Below, one piece after another: positions 93 to 15,669 of a stretch of 29,296 bases of DNA (positions are counted from its first letter, which is position 1; the number at the start of each line of letters is the position of its first letter). The notes beneath the pieces are model-generated. The model ran no database searches. It saw only the letters and a program-made list of their open reading frames with translations, and was not told the origin of the DNA. This DNA comes from a virus: IMG/VR virus record IMGVR_UViG_3300017967_000140, positions 1-29,296 of that record; one strand, 5' to 3'. The position numbers were made by a program, and so were the translations under genes.

Positions 93-2741
93 TCACTCGC
101 TGTCGTCCTCCATCAGTTCGAGGAGAGAGGCGAAGAACTCATCGTCCCCATCCTCCTCATCACCCCAAGCCTGAGGCTCAGGAATGGAGGGAACCTCATT
201 GTCGTCAATGAGCCCGTATTCGTTGAGCCCATCGATGACGAGGTCCATGACCGACCTGCCGTTGCCCGGCTGGAAGATCAAACGGTCATAGCTGCCATAC
301 GGCTTGCCATCTCTCGGGCACAGAATTGAGTGCCAGAGAGCAACAGCCTGCTTGGGAGCCTGATCCATCTGGTCTAGCTCAGCAACCGCCTCATCGACCA
401 CTGCACGCATCGTTGCATGCTTAGCCTTCAAGGCGGAGATCTTCTTGATGCCCGAAGGCAGTCCGTTAATATAACCGAACTGCTTATCGACACCAGCCAA
501 CCTCACCTCATACTTCGAGGCAAAGTCGATAGCCCAGCGCTTTGGCTTAGGCCCAAGATCCCGGACACGCCCTACGACGGGAACAACATGTCGCATCTGA
601 AGCGACTTCTGCATCACCGTGTTGTAGATGTCCTTGATCGCCTTACGGTATTCCTCCTGGAATTCCGAATAGGGACCGAAGACAGCGTGTTCCATTGCTG
701 CCTCACGATCTTCACGACCGGCAAAGCGGGGGACCAGATACTGATCCACCTCATTACCAGCATTAAGCAGGCGAAGAGCATCACCGGAGATATTGGATCC
801 GATGTTCTTGACTGCGTTGAAGATCGCAGGGTCGGACAACTGCTGGACACCATCGACCAGCTGCTCGAAGCCCACCTTCAGTGAGGGCGGAAGATCAACT
901 CCACCAGAGCCAATCCACGCCATCAGGGCATTTGCAGCTTGACCGATACCCGGGTTGAACTGCTGTGCCATGATCTGACGGTAAGCATCGTCAGCAGTGA
1001 AAGAAGCCTTGGAGTAAACCATGTTACTCTTTAGCTCGCCTTCAGTGGCCAACAATGTAGCAGGCGTGGGCAGTGTCGCCAAGTCCACAATCTCAACATT
1101 GTCGAGGTCACGGAACTGCCAAGGTGCCTTCAGGATATCCTCCATCTGCACCATGACATACTCACCGATGCCATTTGGTGAGCGCAGCAGACACGCCATG
1201 TAAGACGCATCATCTGCACTCGTGGCAATCAGATCGTTCTTGCCGATCACGCCAGCTTCCCTCATCATTCGAGTGGAATCTTCCGAAGAAGACCACACCT
1301 TGATGAGGTTGACCTCTGCCGAGTCATCGAAGTCGGCTCCCCCCATGAGGGAAAGCATGTCTTCGATACGGTTGTCAGGCAACACAAGCCCGATTCCTCG
1401 GACCATGTACGCCTTCTTACCATCCCGGCGAGTCTGGAAGTTGCCCACCTTGGTAAGGGAGCCATGGCTAATGAAGTATGCCACGAAGGCATTGGACTTC
1501 GGTAGCCACATGCGACGAGCATAACCCTTCGCATCACCCTGGAAGCATCCCTCGTCAAAGAAACGAGACATGCGTCCAACGACAGCTCCCATAGCCATCC
1601 GCACAACATTCTGTGCAGCACGGATGTCAAGGCCAGCAGCTTGCCAGCGAATAGGAACAGAGTCCAGATCCGAGAACTCATCCCGGATAGACCCAAGGTC
1701 CTCCTCATGCATTTCTGAGGAGTCTAGGAGCAGCCACTCAGGCAGCACACCTTCATTGATCGACTCCTTAATGGTGTCGACCAGTCGGGTAAGATCCCGG
1801 GCCCGATGCTCATGGGTCAGAACCTGTGGGTTCATCACCATACGCTGGATGTCCCAGGTAGCCTGGTAGGTGGGGTGCTTCAACTCAGCCGTAGCCATGA
1901 TGAAGTGCTCCGTGGCCCGCACCTCGTCCTTGACATTCTCAGGGACGGTAATAATATCATACCCTCCCATGAACTTGTCATCTCGGACGATAGCGTGACC
2001 CTTGATGAGGCCACCGTTAGGCATGAACTTCATCCAGCCTGGTCCGAAGACCAGACGGAACGTGCCCAACAGCTGCTCCCGACCATTGTCGATATCATCG
2101 ATCAGATCGAGAGCACGGGCAGGATCACCATGCTCGGAGAGCATACGATAAACGAAGCTCTTCGAGACGTAGTTCATCCCGTCCCTGCCTGTAGGTGTGA
2201 CACCTTTGGGTGTCCGGACCTTCACCCGTACAGAGTGCATATCCTCGGTATAGAGGAACATCTCTGCTGCACGGGAGATCTCATTGGCCCGCTTTGCCGA
2301 CTTCGGCGCATGGACCAACTCGATACCAAGAGGCTTCAAGCCCCAATCATTAACTCCATCAATCTGCAGGAAGAAGGAGCTTCCAGCATTGGCCCACGCG
2401 AACGTAGCCTTTGCCAGAGCCTTCTTCCAGCTCTGATGGAACTTCTTGAGTTGCGCCTCGGTTGCGTGAGGACCGGGGTTGATGCACCCGTTCTCCACGA
2501 CATTGAGGCGGAACTTCAGGTCTTTGGCTTCCGCACGCTTGGTGAGCATGTGGAAGAGCCAGTGACCTGACTCGATGGCGAACAGTTTGCCACCAGAGGA
2601 CAGTTCAGCGACGTTGTTGCTGTCACTGGACACCTCGTGTGCATCCTGCTCACCCTGGACAGCGCCGTTTGTGACGACGCGCACCTCGCCAAAGACCCGA
2701 TGGGTCCTGACGAAGTGCAACACACGGGAGATTGCTCCCAT
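93..2741 (-). CDS. Large protein, possible two-barrel RNA polymerase-like
   Basis: This encodes 882 aa. The ATG at 2741 is chosen because GGAGGTGAT lies six bases upstream; a longer frame to 2882 would run through a tRNA-like element. I do not recognise the family with certainty. Two segments resemble the paired double-psi beta-barrels of YonO/QDE-1-type polymerases: a lysine-bearing GGLIKGHAIV at about 243-252, and GGADFDDSAEVNL at about 467-479, which echoes the NADFDGD metal motif of RNAP beta-prime. R-x-WLP (about 410-414) precedes the second motif, as the RxPxLH element does in beta-prime, and a Ser/Glu-rich stretch follows it. The third catalytic Asp position is Ser474 and the expected Gly is Asp473, so activity is uncertain. 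The C-terminus is very acidic. It is GC-rich compared with the virion genes. It could equally be an unrelated large early phage protein. Confidence 0.4.
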   Translation of the reverse strand: MGAISRVLHFVRTHRVFGEVRVVTNGAVQGEQDAHEVSSDSNNVAELSSGGKLFAIESGHWLFHMLTKRAEAKDLKFRLNVVENGCINPGPHATEAQLKKFHQSWKKALAKATFAWANAGSSFFLQIDGVNDWGLKPLGIELVHAPKSAKRANEISRAAEMFLYTEDMHSVRVKVRTPKGVTPTGRDGMNYVSKSFVYRMLSEHGDPARALDLIDDIDNGREQLLGTFRLVFGPGWMKFMPNGGLIKGHAIVRDDKFMGGYDIITVPENVKDEVRATEHFIMATAELKHPTYQATWDIQRMVMNPQVLTHEHRARDLTRLVDTIKESINEGVLPEWLLLDSSEMHEEDLGSIRDEFSDLDSVPIRWQAAGLDIRAAQNVVRMAMGAVVGRMSRFFDEGCFQGDAKGYARRMWLPKSNAFVAYFISHGSLTKVGNFQTRRDGKKAYMVRGIGLVLPDNRIEDMLSLMGGADFDDSAEVNLIKVWSSSEDSTRMMREAGVIGKNDLIATSADDASYMACLLRSPNGIGEYVMVQMEDILKAPWQFRDLDNVEIVDLATLPTPATLLATEGELKSNMVYSKASFTADDAYRQIMAQQFNPGIGQAANALMAWIGSGGVDLPPSLKVGFEQLVDGVQQLSDPAIFNAVKNIGSNISGDALRLLNAGNEVDQYLVPRFAGREDREAAMEHAVFGPYSEFQEEYRKAIKDIYNTVMQKSLQMRHVVPVVGRVRDLGPKPKRWAIDFASKYEVRLAGVDKQFGYINGLPSGIKKISALKAKHATMRAVVDEAVAELDQMDQAPKQAVALWHSILCPRDGKPYGSYDRLIFQPGNGRSVMDLVIDGLNEYGLIDDNEVPSIPEPQAWGDEEDGDDEFFASLLELMEDDSE

Positions 2742-2765
2742 ATGTATCACCTCCATGGTGATTGT

Positions 2766-2805: not shown

Positions 2806-2881
2806 GTGCCCCAGGTGGAGTCGAACCACCTTGCGACCATCAGGGCTCTGGAAGTATTATTATTCACCCCTCCAGAGGGCA
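2806..2881 (-). other. tRNA-like element: good T-arm and acceptor, non-canonical middle
   Basis: Read leftward, the element is 76 nt long. It has a consensus T-arm (GGTGG stem, TTCGACT loop, CCACC; complement of 2814-2830). An acceptor follows in which TGCCC at the 5' end pairs with GGGCA at the 3' end; extending to seven positions adds a G-U pair and a mismatch. No CCA is encoded. The middle does not fold as D-arm plus anticodon arm. Instead CTCTGGAGG pairs with CTTCCAGAG over 9 bp (one G-U) around a 14-nt loop. It may be a decayed tRNA gene or a functional tRNA-like structure. I would not assign an amino acid. Confidence 0.4.
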
Positions 2882-4918: not shown

Positions 4919-4987
4919 GATCCTCCAATCATGTTGTTGTTTGGGTTGAGCAGTTTAAGGTCATGCTCAGGACCGTCTGATAGTGAA

Positions 4988-5536: not shown

Positions 5537-5599
5537 GGTTAGTTGTCTGATAGTGATCGGTTTGCCATCATCAGTGCATGAGTAACCAACTCATACAGA

Positions 5600-7049: not shown

Positions 7050-7232
7050 TTAGTCATCCCTATTATTTAAAAAAAATTCGTCGGCGGCTAAAGGTTCTTC
7101 CCAGTATTCACCGCAGTCTCGGCATGTAGTGCAGGTCATCTCCTCTTCGTCCTTGTTTATTTTCACAACAGTAACAAAGTTGGGAGGCAGTGAGCACTCC
7201 TCACACGCCATCTGTAACAGTTTGCTGTTCAT
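7050..7232 (-). CDS. 60-aa zinc-ribbon-like protein
   Basis: The gene overlaps the 3' end of recA by 32 bp in another frame and starts at 7232 (GGGTAAGG three bases upstream, tighter than ideal; an ATG at 7208 has no ribosome site). Two Cys clusters, C10-x2-C13 and C34-x2-C37-x2-C40 (CTTCRDC), are separated by a charged strand region (TVVKINKDEEEM), consistent with a small zinc ribbon. Overlap with recA implies translational coupling. The function is unknown; a recombination-linked accessory role is only guilt by association. Confidence 0.65.
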   Translation of the reverse strand: MNSKLLQMACEECSLPPNFVTVVKINKDEEEMTCTTCRDCGEYWEEPLAADEFFLNNRDD

Positions 7233-8199
7233 CTTCCTTACCCTTGATTAGGTTTATTAGTTCTGGATCTTCTTTTATCTTTTGTATAGCATTATCACGA
7301 CCCTGGGCATAGTTTTCATCGCCATGATACACCCAGGCGCCTTTTTGACTTAAGATACCCTTAGATATAGCTACATCGAATAAACAGCCATATTCATCGA
7401 TACCTTTAGCGTATAAGATGTTGAATTCCACTATCTTCATTGGTGGGGCCATCTTATTCTTGATAATCTTAGCTTTTACGCCAATTCCAACAGAATTACC
7501 CTGCTTGTCTTTTAGGTCTTCTCTTTTTCTTACATCAATTCTGACAGATGAGTAGAACTTAAGTGACATTCCACCAGGAGTAGTTTCCGGATTGCCAAAC
7601 ATAACACCAATCTTATTTCTCAGCTGATTAATAAAGATTATAAGTGTATTATGCTGTGCAGCCAGGCCGGTCATCTTACGCAGTGCTTTGGCCATCATGC
7701 GAGCCTGTAGACCCATATGAGCCTGCTCCATCTCGCCATCAAGCTCTGCCTTTGGCACAAGTGCTGCAACAGAGTCAATAACGATAAGACCAATCTCACC
7801 AGTGCGTAATAGCTTGTCCGCTATGTCTAAACCCTGCTCTCCATGGTCTGGTTGGGCCAGCAAGAGGTTATCCAGGTCTATCCCTACCTCTTTCATGTAA
7901 ACTGGGTCTAGCGAGTGTTCTGCGTCAATATAGGCGCATGTGACGCCCATCTGTTGCGCCTTAGCTACAGTGGTAAGTGCTATGGTAGATTTACCAGATG
8001 ATTCTGGTCCGTATATTTCTACTATTCTACCTTTTGGTAGGCCACCGATGCCAAGAGCATGGTCTAGCGTGAGGGCACCAGTCGGAATTGAATCCCAAGG
8101 CTTGACATTGGTGGATCCAAGCCTAATTACGGATCCTTGTCCGTATTGTCTCTGCAGTTGCGCTATTGCAACTTCCAGAGCTTTATTTTCTTCAGTCAT
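7201..8199 (-). CDS. recA: RecA recombinase
   Basis: This is a 332-aa, full-length bacterial-type RecA that drives ATP-dependent strand exchange on ssDNA. Visible features are Walker A GPESSGKST (64-72), the conserved YIDAEHSLDP segment, Walker B LIVIDSVAALVPKAE, and the FINQLRNKIGVMFGNPETTPGG stretch that includes the L2 DNA-binding loop, split here as IFINQLRNKIG and VMFGNPETTPGG. An SVRIDVRKRE strand and a short acidic C-terminal tail follow. ATG 8199 is chosen (AAGGAAA eight bases upstream); a TTG one codon earlier is less likely. It overlaps the upstream 86-aa gene by 8 bp and the downstream 60-aa gene by 32 bp, so the three form an operon. A complete RecA suggests the phage carries out its own recombination-dependent replication or repair. 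Confidence 0.97.
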   Translation of the reverse strand: MTEENKALEVAIAQLQRQYGQGSVIRLGSTNVKPWDSIPTGALTLDHALGIGGLPKGRIVEIYGPESSGKSTIALTTVAKAQQMGVTCAYIDAEHSLDPVYMKEVGIDLDNLLLAQPDHGEQGLDIADKLLRTGEIGLIVIDSVAALVPKAELDGEMEQAHMGLQARMMAKALRKMTGLAAQHNTLIIFINQLRNKIGVMFGNPETTPGGMSLKFYSSVRIDVRKREDLKDKQGNSVGIGVKAKIIKNKMAPPMKIVEFNILYAKGIDEYGCLFDVAISKGILSQKGAWVYHGDENYAQGRDNAIQKIKEDPELINLIKGKEDEQQTVTDGV

Positions 8200-8452
8200 C
8201 AAAAAGCTTTCCTTGACTATAGTTCACGCGCATCTGATTGATACACTTGGTTATGATTATATCATAAAAGTCATTGTGAAACGACTCCAATTCGCCCACA
8301 ATCAGCTTCATTAGGTCATCTGCTGCGTCAGGCGACAGCTCATAAAGAATCGATGCTCGCTCACACTCGTCAATCATATCCTGAAACAAAGACTGTATTT
8401 TCTGCATTGATTTTGCGATCTGTTTATCAATTATCGGTAGTGCTTCATTCAT
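8192..8452 (-). CDS. 86-aa helical protein upstream of recA
   Basis: First gene of the recA operon. The ATG at 8452 has only a weak AGAGAG-type ribosome site. The protein is predicted almost wholly helical (MNEALPIIDKQIAKSMQKIQ at the start, long amphipathic heptads after), with two Cys and an acidic end (GKLFDD). The last residues resemble the F/LFDD-type clamp-binding ends of some replication proteins, but this is weak. Its stop overlaps the recA start. The family is not recognised. Confidence 0.7.
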   Translation of the reverse strand: MNEALPIIDKQIAKSMQKIQSLFQDMIDECERASILYELSPDAADDLMKLIVGELESFHNDFYDIIITKCINQMRVNYSQGKLFDD

Positions 8453-8522: not shown

Positions 8523-8676
8523 GTCTGATAATGATCAGCATTTAATGCTGGCAATGTACCTACTAAAGAATAGATTTAACACACCATGGGACCTACTTAA
8601 GTACTGGGGTGCCTTTGGACCATGTATTGAAGAGTGCCCCAGTGTGGAGAAGATAGAAAGTTTTGACGAGGCTTGA
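8515..8676 (+). CDS. 53-aa hypothetical protein (TTG start)
   Basis: A TTG at 8515 follows AAGGAG at six-base spacing. The product starts MSKSDNDQHLMLAMYLLKNR and continues WDLLKYWGAFGPCIEECPSVEKIESFDEA, with two Cys. It is compact and helical, with no recognised family. A perfect TATAAT at 8473-8478 lies 37 bp upstream and could serve it, though no -35 is clear. The strong virion-operon promoter lies inside its last codons. The unusual start codon lowers certainty. Confidence 0.5.
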   Translation: MSKSDNDQHLMLAMYLLKNRFNTPWDLLKYWGAFGPCIEECPSVEKIESFDEA

Positions 8677-12459: not shown

Positions 12460-15400
12460 ATGGCGAGAGGGAGGGAAGCTCTACTCAATATTTTCAGTGG
12501 ACTAAATCTAACTGCAAGAGATTCTTCTGGGGCAGCCATTCTGCCCACAGGATTAAATAGCTTTTTCCAGCAAAGCCCATTAACCTCTGGCGCGTTATCT
12601 AACTTCTACGGAAGCGATGCAGCCTTTATGCAGAGGTTTCAGGGGTTTGAGGAAGAATTTTTTAGAACTATTTCTGATTCAACAAACTTAAGAGTTGGTC
12701 AATCGGTAGATATCGCAGCGATGCAGGCAAGCGGATACATGGATTTCAATGTTCTAAATGAACAAGCCAAAAGACAATTGAAACAAAAGTTCGGTCGTAA
12801 TGTTATGGACTTTGGTGGCTTAATCCAGAGGTTTGGTCTTCCTGGGTCTGAACTCCCTAATTCAAACTTATATAGGTCGCCATTTAGATTTAGAACCCTA
12901 AATCAAGGTGATAATTTAAGTCCAAGTGTTGCCTTACTTAATAGTTTGACACTGAATATCGACACTACCGGTAGAACTGCTGGTGTGGATTCGATAAATA
13001 TTGGTGGCAAGATAATGACCAGTAGAAGACTTAGAGAGCTATCCGATAGGTCGGTTTACACTGATATGTTTTCTGGTCCAGGTACCAAAAAAATTATTAC
13101 ATTTGACACTGAGACAACAGGTCTAAATAGAGGTGCTCAAGTTAGATCTATGGCTATGGCTGAGTCTACTTATGAGAACGGAATCCTAAAAAGTGTTTCA
13201 AAAGTTGACGGTTTTAACTTCGCTTATGACGCTCCGGCATTAGGTGGCTTGACTGTGGATACATTAAATGGTGGATCTCAAGAAATGAGTAAATTCTTAA
13301 TGCAGATAGAAGGTGCGGATAAGATAGCGGAAAACCCTGCTCAATTTCTAGATAATGCTAACGATTTTGTTAAAAGAATGTTGGAAGCAGACATGATCGC
13401 GGGACATAATGTTGGATTCGATATTGGAATGATGGATTCAACAATAAGGCAAACTGCAGGATTTCAAAATCATGAAATCTTTGGAACCATGGGAAGGTTT
13501 TATGAGAAAATAAATGCCGGAGGTTATATTGTTGATACAGCTGACACGGCAAGAAGTTATTTCATAAATCAGGTGGAAGCCGCAACTGGTGGGATAACAG
13601 ATTTGGACGATCAAGCTCAGAGGTTTATTAAAGGATTATATTCACCTGAATCTTTAGCAAAAGTGACGGTTGGAGGTAGCGCAACGTATGCTGACGTGGG
13701 CAATATAGTCACAAATACAAACTTAATTGAATTGATTGAGAATGTTGATAATGGGGTCATAACTCAGTTAAAGCAGGGTTCTCACATAGCTGAAACAGAC
13801 GTAATACTTCAGTCTTATGTAGCTAATTTTATACAAACCGGTGAACTTAAAATCAGAAGCTTAAATCCAGGAATAGCTTCTACAACAACTGGTGACGAGA
13901 TAAGGAGGATAGTCGCAAGATCAAGCGCGATAACTCCAACAACCAACATAGCCGATGTCGAGCATATGAGTGCGGCAACAAAAGCATATGCCAAGACAAA
14001 CGAAGGACTTAAGGGCGCTGTTGCTATGGTCGGGCCTGGGGATGAAAGATCTTTGGGATTGGTAGGTAATATATCTGAGGGTGGTCACTTAAGGTATATG
14101 AATGGTGGGTACCAGTATGTAACTGGACAAGGCGCTGGCAATATGGTTCAGGTAGACTCAGGTCTAGCTAGACAGTTCTTGACGGATGTAATAGATTCTA
14201 GGTCTAAAAAGCTTATGAGTTCTGGTGTTAATTATATGTCGCAATCAGCTGCAAATCAGATCATGTCTCAAGCAGGCATATCGGTAGCCACCGATCCTGA
14301 TTCAGCTGCTGTGATTAACGCATTTGGATCTTTTTATGAAAACTATGGATCTGGAGTTAGCCCAGGTGCGTATAGGGATTACAGGGCAGGCAGAGGTACT
14401 ATAACACCTTTTGGCGCAGGGTTAAATCCTGTTAATCAAGTGACAGCTAGATCTGTCACGGAAGCATTTGCAGCCGCAGGGGATCCTTTGGCTGGATTTG
14501 GAGGAGATGTAAGTAGGGCGTTCACTACAGCTTTTGCTAAAGCTACCGCTAAGGTTGGAATGGAAGAAGGCGCAAAACTTGGCTTAGCTATGACTCAGCA
14601 CGCTGATTTAATGGCTGAAGGCGGTATTGCATACTTTAGAACTATGAACAATAGAGTGGCTGGATTGCCTGGAATAGGTACACCTTCTAGGGTTCAGTTG
14701 CCCACGGCAGTAGTTAGGGAGGCAGCTGAAAGAGCAGGTGCTTTTGATGGTGGTTTTGGCGGTTTAACATATTCTTTTGTTGACGAAGGTGAAGATCTTA
14801 TAACTGCAAATGTAGTTTATAATCCAACAAAAGATTTAAGCTCAGCTCAAAGAACAACTTTTTATGGTGCCATCCAAGACATAATGTCTAATGCACAGGA
14901 AGTTTCTAGGGTTACAGGTTTGGAGCAGTCGGAGTTTGATTCTACCTTAAAGGCTTCCATAAATTCTTTCGCCAATGGCGGTGATGATGTAGCCTCAATG
15001 ATAGATCTTGCTAATGAAAATGGAATACTGATAGGGTCTACAGAAGTAGATAGGTCGCTTCAAGACGAAGTTGCTCAAATGTTGCGTACAGAATCTGCAA
15101 ATGATGTGAACATGAGGCATATGGCCGGAAGATCAGTCTCTTTAGGTGAAGAGGCTGATAGAGGACTTTTGGCAGTGGCATATTCAGCAGATGAAAAAGC
15201 ACTAGCAATTTCTGGGCAGGGCCAAAATGCTGCCGATTTAGCTAGGCAAAAAGTTGTTGCGACAGAAAAGCAGGCAGCTATAGTTGCAGAAAATGAGGCA
15301 GCTGTTAGACGCAAGGTGGGCAGAGGCCTTACTGGAATGGGCGAGAATAAGTTATTGAATGCATTCGATGCAGTTAGACCAAAAGCCGGACTAATAGGAA

Positions 15401-15669
15401 TAGGCGTGGCTGCTGCAACAGCTGGTTACTATATGAATAAGAGACGCCAAGAAGTTTCTTTATACAACGAAACATTGGAAGCTCAACCATATGAAAAATC
15501 TAGAAATACTTATCAGCAAAATAGGTCAGCAGCACAGTTTGTTGATGTTTCATCAACCAGATATGACCCATTGAATACAGCTGGAACAGTAGGGAACTTA
15601 GATAGAAGTAAGATAGGGCACACTCACATGGGCAATAGAAAAAATGATCATCTGTTTAGAGGAGTATAA
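12460..15669 (+). CDS. 1069-aa virion-operon protein with embedded DEDDh exonuclease
   Basis: The ATG follows GAGGAATGAT. Residues about 208-460 form a DnaQ-like 3'-5' exonuclease domain with all catalytic residues: FDTETTGL (D216, E218), GHNVGFD (D321) and HIAETD (H442, D447), with DTADTARS between motifs as in DnaQ proteins. The ExoII-ExoIII gap is longer than in DnaQ. The flanks are not polymerase: the first 200 residues and the 500-residue Gly/Ala/Ser-rich rest look structural. GLIGIGVAAATAGYYM near the C-terminus is a short hydrophobic helix, followed by a basic tail ending RKNDHLFRGV. Its place among virion genes suggests a packaged or ejected nuclease that trims DNA ends at packaging or attacks host DNA at entry. 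Both roles are inferred. Confidence 0.8.
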   Translation: MARGREALLNIFSGLNLTARDSSGAAILPTGLNSFFQQSPLTSGALSNFYGSDAAFMQRFQGFEEEFFRTISDSTNLRVGQSVDIAAMQASGYMDFNVLNEQAKRQLKQKFGRNVMDFGGLIQRFGLPGSELPNSNLYRSPFRFRTLNQGDNLSPSVALLNSLTLNIDTTGRTAGVDSINIGGKIMTSRRLRELSDRSVYTDMFSGPGTKKIITFDTETTGLNRGAQVRSMAMAESTYENGILKSVSKVDGFNFAYDAPALGGLTVDTLNGGSQEMSKFLMQIEGADKIAENPAQFLDNANDFVKRMLEADMIAGHNVGFDIGMMDSTIRQTAGFQNHEIFGTMGRFYEKINAGGYIVDTADTARSYFINQVEAATGGITDLDDQAQRFIKGLYSPESLAKVTVGGSATYADVGNIVTNTNLIELIENVDNGVITQLKQGSHIAETDVILQSYVANFIQTGELKIRSLNPGIASTTTGDEIRRIVARSSAITPTTNIADVEHMSAATKAYAKTNEGLKGAVAMVGPGDERSLGLVGNISEGGHLRYMNGGYQYVTGQGAGNMVQVDSGLARQFLTDVIDSRSKKLMSSGVNYMSQSAANQIMSQAGISVATDPDSAAVINAFGSFYENYGSGVSPGAYRDYRAGRGTITPFGAGLNPVNQVTARSVTEAFAAAGDPLAGFGGDVSRAFTTAFAKATAKVGMEEGAKLGLAMTQHADLMAEGGIAYFRTMNNRVAGLPGIGTPSRVQLPTAVVREAAERAGAFDGGFGGLTYSFVDEGEDLITANVVYNPTKDLSSAQRTTFYGAIQDIMSNAQEVSRVTGLEQSEFDSTLKASINSFANGGDDVASMIDLANENGILIGSTEVDRSLQDEVAQMLRTESANDVNMRHMAGRSVSLGEEADRGLLAVAYSADEKALAISGQGQNAADLARQKVVATEKQAAIVAENEAAVRRKVGRGLTGMGENKLLNAFDAVRPKAGLIGIGVAAATAGYYMNKRRQEVSLYNETLEAQPYEKSRNTYQQNRSAAQFVDVSSTRYDPLNTAGTVGNLDRSKIGHTHMGNRKNDHLFRGV

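Follow-up and report, generated by a model that had tools for sequence, protein, structure and literature searches.

The window, that is, the whole stretch of 29,296 bases analysed here, is classed as a virus record and represents a fragment of a tailed phage. It carries a long gene on its minus strand, and the question raised by this locus is what kind of enzyme the gene encodes and whether that enzyme is likely to be active. A sequence-only reading had pointed to a two-barrel RNA polymerase (RNAP). The gene was therefore delimited, its relatives collected, its fold predicted and the result compared with known polymerases.

The gene and its surroundings

The reading frame of the polymerase-like gene stays open to position 2882, and in this longer form it crosses a tRNA-like stretch. 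As the ATG at 2741 is preceded by a strong Shine-Dalgarno sequence, GGAGGTGAT, the shorter frame (2741..93) was taken as the likely gene.

93..2741, minus strand: polymerase-like gene, proposed single-chain two-barrel RNA polymerase type; 882 aa, with residue 1 at the ATG at 2741 and the stop codon at 93-95
2746..2754, minus strand: Shine-Dalgarno sequence before the ATG at 2741

The neighbouring genes are those of a tailed phage and include UvsX/RecA, an AAA+ protein, the terminase large subunit and the portal. The terminase shares ∼36% identity with its counterpart in Moorella phage MTATph1 and had 377 relatives among the IMG/VR candidates.

The tRNA-like element (2807-2881, minus strand) lies just 5' of the polymerase start, with a T-arm, GGTGGTTCGACTCCACC, and an acceptor TGCCC/TGGGGCA. 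ARAGORN and Rfam were negative for it, and its folding was not clearly above that of shuffled sequences.

A family carried by large tailed phages

When used as a single query, the window protein gave no match in Pfam, PHROGs, PDB sequences, INPHARED phages, IMG/VR or the GTDB genomes. Relatives were found by searching whole IMG/VR records that share a terminase or portal with the window. The first of these searches returned nine long-stretch matches with 23-30% identity. Three records also contained a paralogue at a greater distance, in two cases alongside the first kind. Iterated searches brought the family, counting the window, to 41 members after removal of redundancy at 90% identity; the family alignment has 42 rows since the window was entered twice. 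No members were detected in the INPHARED phages by single-sequence search, and a pattern scan of the GTDB genomes with the C-type alignment gave 474 pattern matches and no relative. The family is carried by large tailed phages and has no name in the databases searched (Pfam, PHROGs, NCBIfam and PDB sequences), and the literature searched contained no description of it or of a permuted two-barrel polymerase.

A tree of 36 rows revealed three groups. Group A holds the window protein and L226, its closest relative at 49%, along with two long fusion proteins and a clade of six members with the canonical DxDGD motif; group B consists of L169-like proteins, and group C accounts for 20 rows. Many records carry a group C paralogue together with a group A or B member, mostly 10-16 kb apart, and the records with such pairs measure up to 268 kb, several exceeding 200 kb. 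Both the family and its paralogue pairs are thus observed directly.

Invariant residues and motifs

Seventeen residues were 100% conserved in the 41 non-redundant members, the window included: K147, K150, R151, D187, G188, K247, G248, K271, E273, D470, D472, D473, R520, P522, N523, G600 and D630. The main elements are located as follows.

2289..2303, minus strand: K147-x-x-K150-R151 motif, invariant across the family
2178..2183, minus strand: D187-G188, invariant; YonO has DG at a like place
1986..2015, minus strand: GGLIKGHAIV (residues 243-252), with K247-G248 invariant
1923..1937, minus strand: NVKDE (residues 269-273), with K271 and E273 invariant
1323..1334, minus strand: D470-F-D472-D473, where Mg2+ is proposed to bind; nine relatives have DxDGD at the aligned position
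1173..1184, minus strand: R520-S-P522-N523, invariant, on the C-terminal side of the Asp motif
930..956, minus strand: NPGIGQAAN (residues 596-604), weak candidate for a bridge-helix element; its match to the YonO segment YGINIGEYSN, at a like place, was not reproduced

Both motifs on which the sequence-only reading rested, GGLIKGHAIV at 243-252 and GGADFDDSAEVNL at residues 467-479 of the 882-aa protein, were confirmed, and so was its R-x-WLP element ahead of the second motif, which is R409-R-M-W-L-P and is not invariant in the family. The lysine that it placed at about 248 is K247. Its statement that the third aspartate had been replaced (DFDDS) did not hold: the glycine is missing, and the third aspartate, D473, is invariant. 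The canonical DxDGD is present in nine of the 41 members at the position of the window's DFD-D, with the alignment gap falling on the glycine, which supports the earlier suggestion that D473 is used instead. The window and 31 other members have DxDD and retain all three aspartates. Since the DxDGD members of the 36-row tree form one clade, the ancestral state, DxDD or DxDGD, remains undecided. In the window protein, the invariant R-x-P-N follows the Asp motif at a distance of 47 residues.

Among close relatives, dN/dS values of about 0.05-0.17 were obtained, the DxDD clades included, which demonstrates strong purifying selection. Between the window and L226, synonymous sites were near saturation (pS 0.69, pN 0.37).

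Predicted fold

An AlphaFold2 model of the full-length protein, built on a 36-member alignment, reached a pLDDT of 81.9 and a pTM of 0.76. The first seven Foldseek matches against the PDB were all two-barrel RNAPs, namely QDE-1 (E 3.5e-5), its Thielavia orthologue and the P74-26/P23-45 phage RNAPs (P74-26 gp62, E 1.3e-3; P23-45 gp64, E 4.5e-3), and the next match had an E-value of 1.1. In the VIA comparison, rows 1-17 were likewise all two-barrel RNAPs, with Z from 11.8 to 6.3 (RDR2 11.8, QDE-1 9.6, gp62 8.6 and gp96 6.3), while the best BFVD matches were two uncharacterised phage proteins followed by P23-45 gp64. Rows such as GST and 14-3-3 in the VIA list involved the helical C-terminal part only and were set aside as noise. 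The overall fold is hence predicted, with consistent support from these searches, to be that of a single-chain two-barrel RNAP, and the order given by the sequence-only reading, a lysine barrel and then the Asp motif, held in the matches of the full protein.

1884..2261, minus strand: barrel 1 (residues ∼161-286), lysine-bearing double-psi barrel (DPBB), matching isolated DPBB domains
1083..1532, minus strand: barrel 2 (residues ∼404-553), Asp-bearing, in which the strand order may be rewired

The two barrels differed in how well they could be recognised separately. Barrel 1 (model residues 160-286) matched a VCP-like ATPase and designed DPBBs with Z of about 4 (VIA), and it is predicted by the model to be a DPBB bearing the two lysines K247 and K271; the cleft geometry was not measured. 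The barrel 2 fragment (residues 366-560), folded alone with a pLDDT of 83.4, had no PDB match (best Foldseek E 1.5), and none of 283 chains reached Z 2 in VIA. UFD1, which contains a DPBB, appeared only at ranks 7 and 18 (E 3.7 and 5.1). The VIA alignment with gp62 extends over 61-717 and includes 403 residues, which does not in itself show that barrel 2 is covered. As the fragment alone matched nothing, barrel 2 has not been independently shown to be a DPBB.

Comparison with known polymerases

The sequence-only reading had proposed a divergent polymerase of the YonO/QDE-1 type. The full-protein fold matches support this, and no significant sequence or profile similarity was found to YonO, QDE-1/PF05183, the P23-45 RNAPs or any known polymerase; the protein thus shares the predicted fold of these enzymes and is best placed in a family of its own. 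Neither the window nor any of the 36 members matched Pfam, including PF05183 and the RNA_pol_Rpb families. An hhalign comparison with a five-member YonO alignment gave a probability under 1%, and profile-profile comparisons with YonO, gp64, gp66 and gp96 were not significant. A piece-wise profile comparison at first looked encouraging; with window columns only, which drops the glycine column, and shuffled controls, only the YonO DG and RSP elements aligned, and this result was marginal.

The best fold matches were the eukaryotic RNA-dependent RNAPs QDE-1 and plant RDR2 (PF05183), which are also single chains with the lysine barrel before the Asp barrel. K247 and K271 are 24 residues apart, as are K743 and K767 in QDE-1 (PMC1750930). 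The window protein differs from them in having DxDD rather than DxDGD and in its R-x-P-N following the Asp motif. The Thermus phage enzymes P23-45 gp64 (nvRNAP), P74-26 gp62 and the gp96 vRNAP share the fold, the phage origin and the single chain, and occur as two paralogues per genome, as is often so in the new family (PMC10770324). They differ from the window protein in that gp64 is smaller (616 aa), gp96 forms a fusion with the tape measure protein, and an R-x-P element precedes a canonical DxDGD in the Thermus phage enzymes. YonO of SPbeta-like phages is a single chain of similar size, in which DG, KG and RSP motifs are recognisable by eye, with a single piece-wise profile match each on DG and RSP.

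In YonO the RSP precedes DNDGD and in gp64 the RRP element precedes DxDGD, whereas the R-x-P-N of the new family comes after its Asp motif. The cellular beta-prime subunit also has an R-x-P element before the Asp motif. An upstream R-x-P element is absent from the family as an invariant feature; the known members compared (YonO and gp64) have one, although it is not an agreed defining feature. Two uncharacterised and unannotated proteins of uncultured Caudovirales, A0A6J5M9G6 and A0A6J5NTF7, were close fold matches along the full length (E 3.7e-36 and 9.3e-31) and are probably members of the family, judging from the fold matches alone.

Proposed function and alternative explanations

We consider it likely that the gene encodes a single-chain two-barrel polymerase of a new family, most probably a DNA-dependent RNAP that transcribes some of the phage genes; activity and template are inferred. 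In the proposed mechanism, barrel 1 (161-286) would offer K247 and K271 to the substrate and nucleic acid, and barrel 2 would hold Mg2+ through D470, D472 and D473 in a D-x-D-D loop, seen as DxDGD shortened by one residue. R520 and N523 would contact the NTP; in other two-barrel polymerases the R-x-P element contacts the NTP. Metal binding and polymerisation are inferences from invariant residues and a predicted fold. Transcription is favoured because the known phage enzymes with this fold are DNA-dependent RNAPs, and YonO and P23-45 gp64 and gp96 use DNA templates (PMC5467207, PMC10770324). A cellular-type RNAP (PF00562) was not found in 16 related records, nor was sigma-70 region 2 in an overlapping set of 16, with controls detected in both searches. 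Gene absence is weak evidence here, the records being fragments or of unknown completeness, and the search for a T7-type RNAP was uninformative since its controls went undetected. The main reading has evident weak points: the lack of significant similarity, the unmatched barrel 2, the position of R-x-P, the missing glycine, and the absence of activity data and of a conserved promoter.

Several other explanations were weighed. The protein could be a two-barrel enzyme of DNA replication, either a primase or a DNA polymerase like archaeal PolD. The two-barrel core is present in PolD as well, and two of the three aspartates suffice for its activity (PMC4996933). PolD (DP2) was absent from the listed Foldseek and VIA matches, which does not exclude a likeness. 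Bacterial-type PolIII alpha is encoded in 11 of 16 records, so that there is no need to invoke the protein as a replicative DNA polymerase, and all clear fold matches were RNA polymerases; we regard this explanation as unlikely. A priming role stays possible, as 16 large records with the family yielded neither the DnaG core nor the DnaG zinc domain. It could also be argued that barrel 1 is the sole true double-psi barrel and that the rest is another fold, the match being carried by barrel 1 and the helices. The unmatched barrel 2 and the gp62 alignment leave room for this; against it, other DPBB proteins rank far below the two-barrel RNAPs in the whole-protein match, and DxDGD occurs in the second barrel of nine members, which makes it improbable.

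Less credible still is a dead, polymerase-derived protein with a structural or regulatory role. Its support is the glycine missing from the window and 31 other members, which would mark an inactive site, as the sequence-only reading had allowed. All 41 members, the DxDD ones included, keep the three aspartates, the two lysines and R-x-P-N unchanged, the DxDD clades are under strong purifying selection, and PolD works with a changed triad (PMC4996933); inactivity is thus very unlikely. The top fold matches, whether ranked by E-value or by Z, are RNA-dependent enzymes, which would agree with an RNA-dependent RNA polymerase of the QDE-1 or RDR2 kind that works on transcripts instead of DNA. The tested phage relatives of the fold (YonO, gp64 and gp96) use DNA, however, and phages are not known to have an RNA-silencing partner, so we give this possibility very little weight as well, the template type remaining an inference.

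If the preferred reading, a DNA-dependent RNAP, is correct, a separate phage family joins the few single-chain two-barrel RNA polymerases, and its shorter metal loop and displaced R-x-P-N provide a natural test of what change is permissible in the universal transcription active site. P23-45 and phiKZ each have a virion and a non-virion polymerase, which the paralogue pairs in many of these phages resemble; the recurrence of the pairs suggests that one paralogue is a virion polymerase and the other a later one, as is the case in jumbo phages. Such a pair would point to host-independent transcription in large uncultured phages, although the division of labour between the paralogues is inferred.

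A possibly rearranged catalytic barrel

A bolder reading, towards which the evidence does not quite tip, is that the active-site barrel has been rearranged, the R-x-P hairpin having moved behind the Asp motif, and that it is combined with a DxDD triad and two paralogues per phage. The strand order would then be b1-b2-[b5-helix-DxD(G)D-b6]-[b3(RxPN)-b4], with a metal loop one residue shorter. The moved hairpin is suggested by R-x-P-N following the Asp motif and by the barrel 2 fragment matching nothing; a fragment artefact or an unrelated R-x-P-N remain possible alternatives.

Additional observations

No conserved promoter was found for the polymerase family in the window and relatives. A candidate, ATCAyTATCAGAC, was rejected, as its three sites are expected about 1 in 10 times by chance (shuffles) and it is absent in relatives. 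The sites, TTCACTATCAGAC, ATCACTATCAGAC and ATCATTATCAGAC (4975-4987, 5545-5557 and 8523-8535, minus strand), lie upstream of three small genes.

The polymerase ORF of some relatives is extended N-terminally (L166:1-1416, L167 and L234:3-602), and related genes occur at L254:11133-11672 and L255:7758-8291. By eye, the extensions resemble DprA/SLOG and 2OG-Fe(II) oxygenase domains. The L166 extension and the L255 gene had no Pfam match; the stand-alone L254 gene (DprA, E 0.0003) and the L234 extension (2OG, E 0.002) did not reach the cut-offs.

In the window, the UvsX/RecA-like gene (7201-8202, minus strand) has a TTG start and lies on the same strand as the polymerase gene. A 1069-aa protein encoded in the head-packaging operon (12460-15669, plus strand) has a weak exonuclease match (RNase_T/DnaQ-like).
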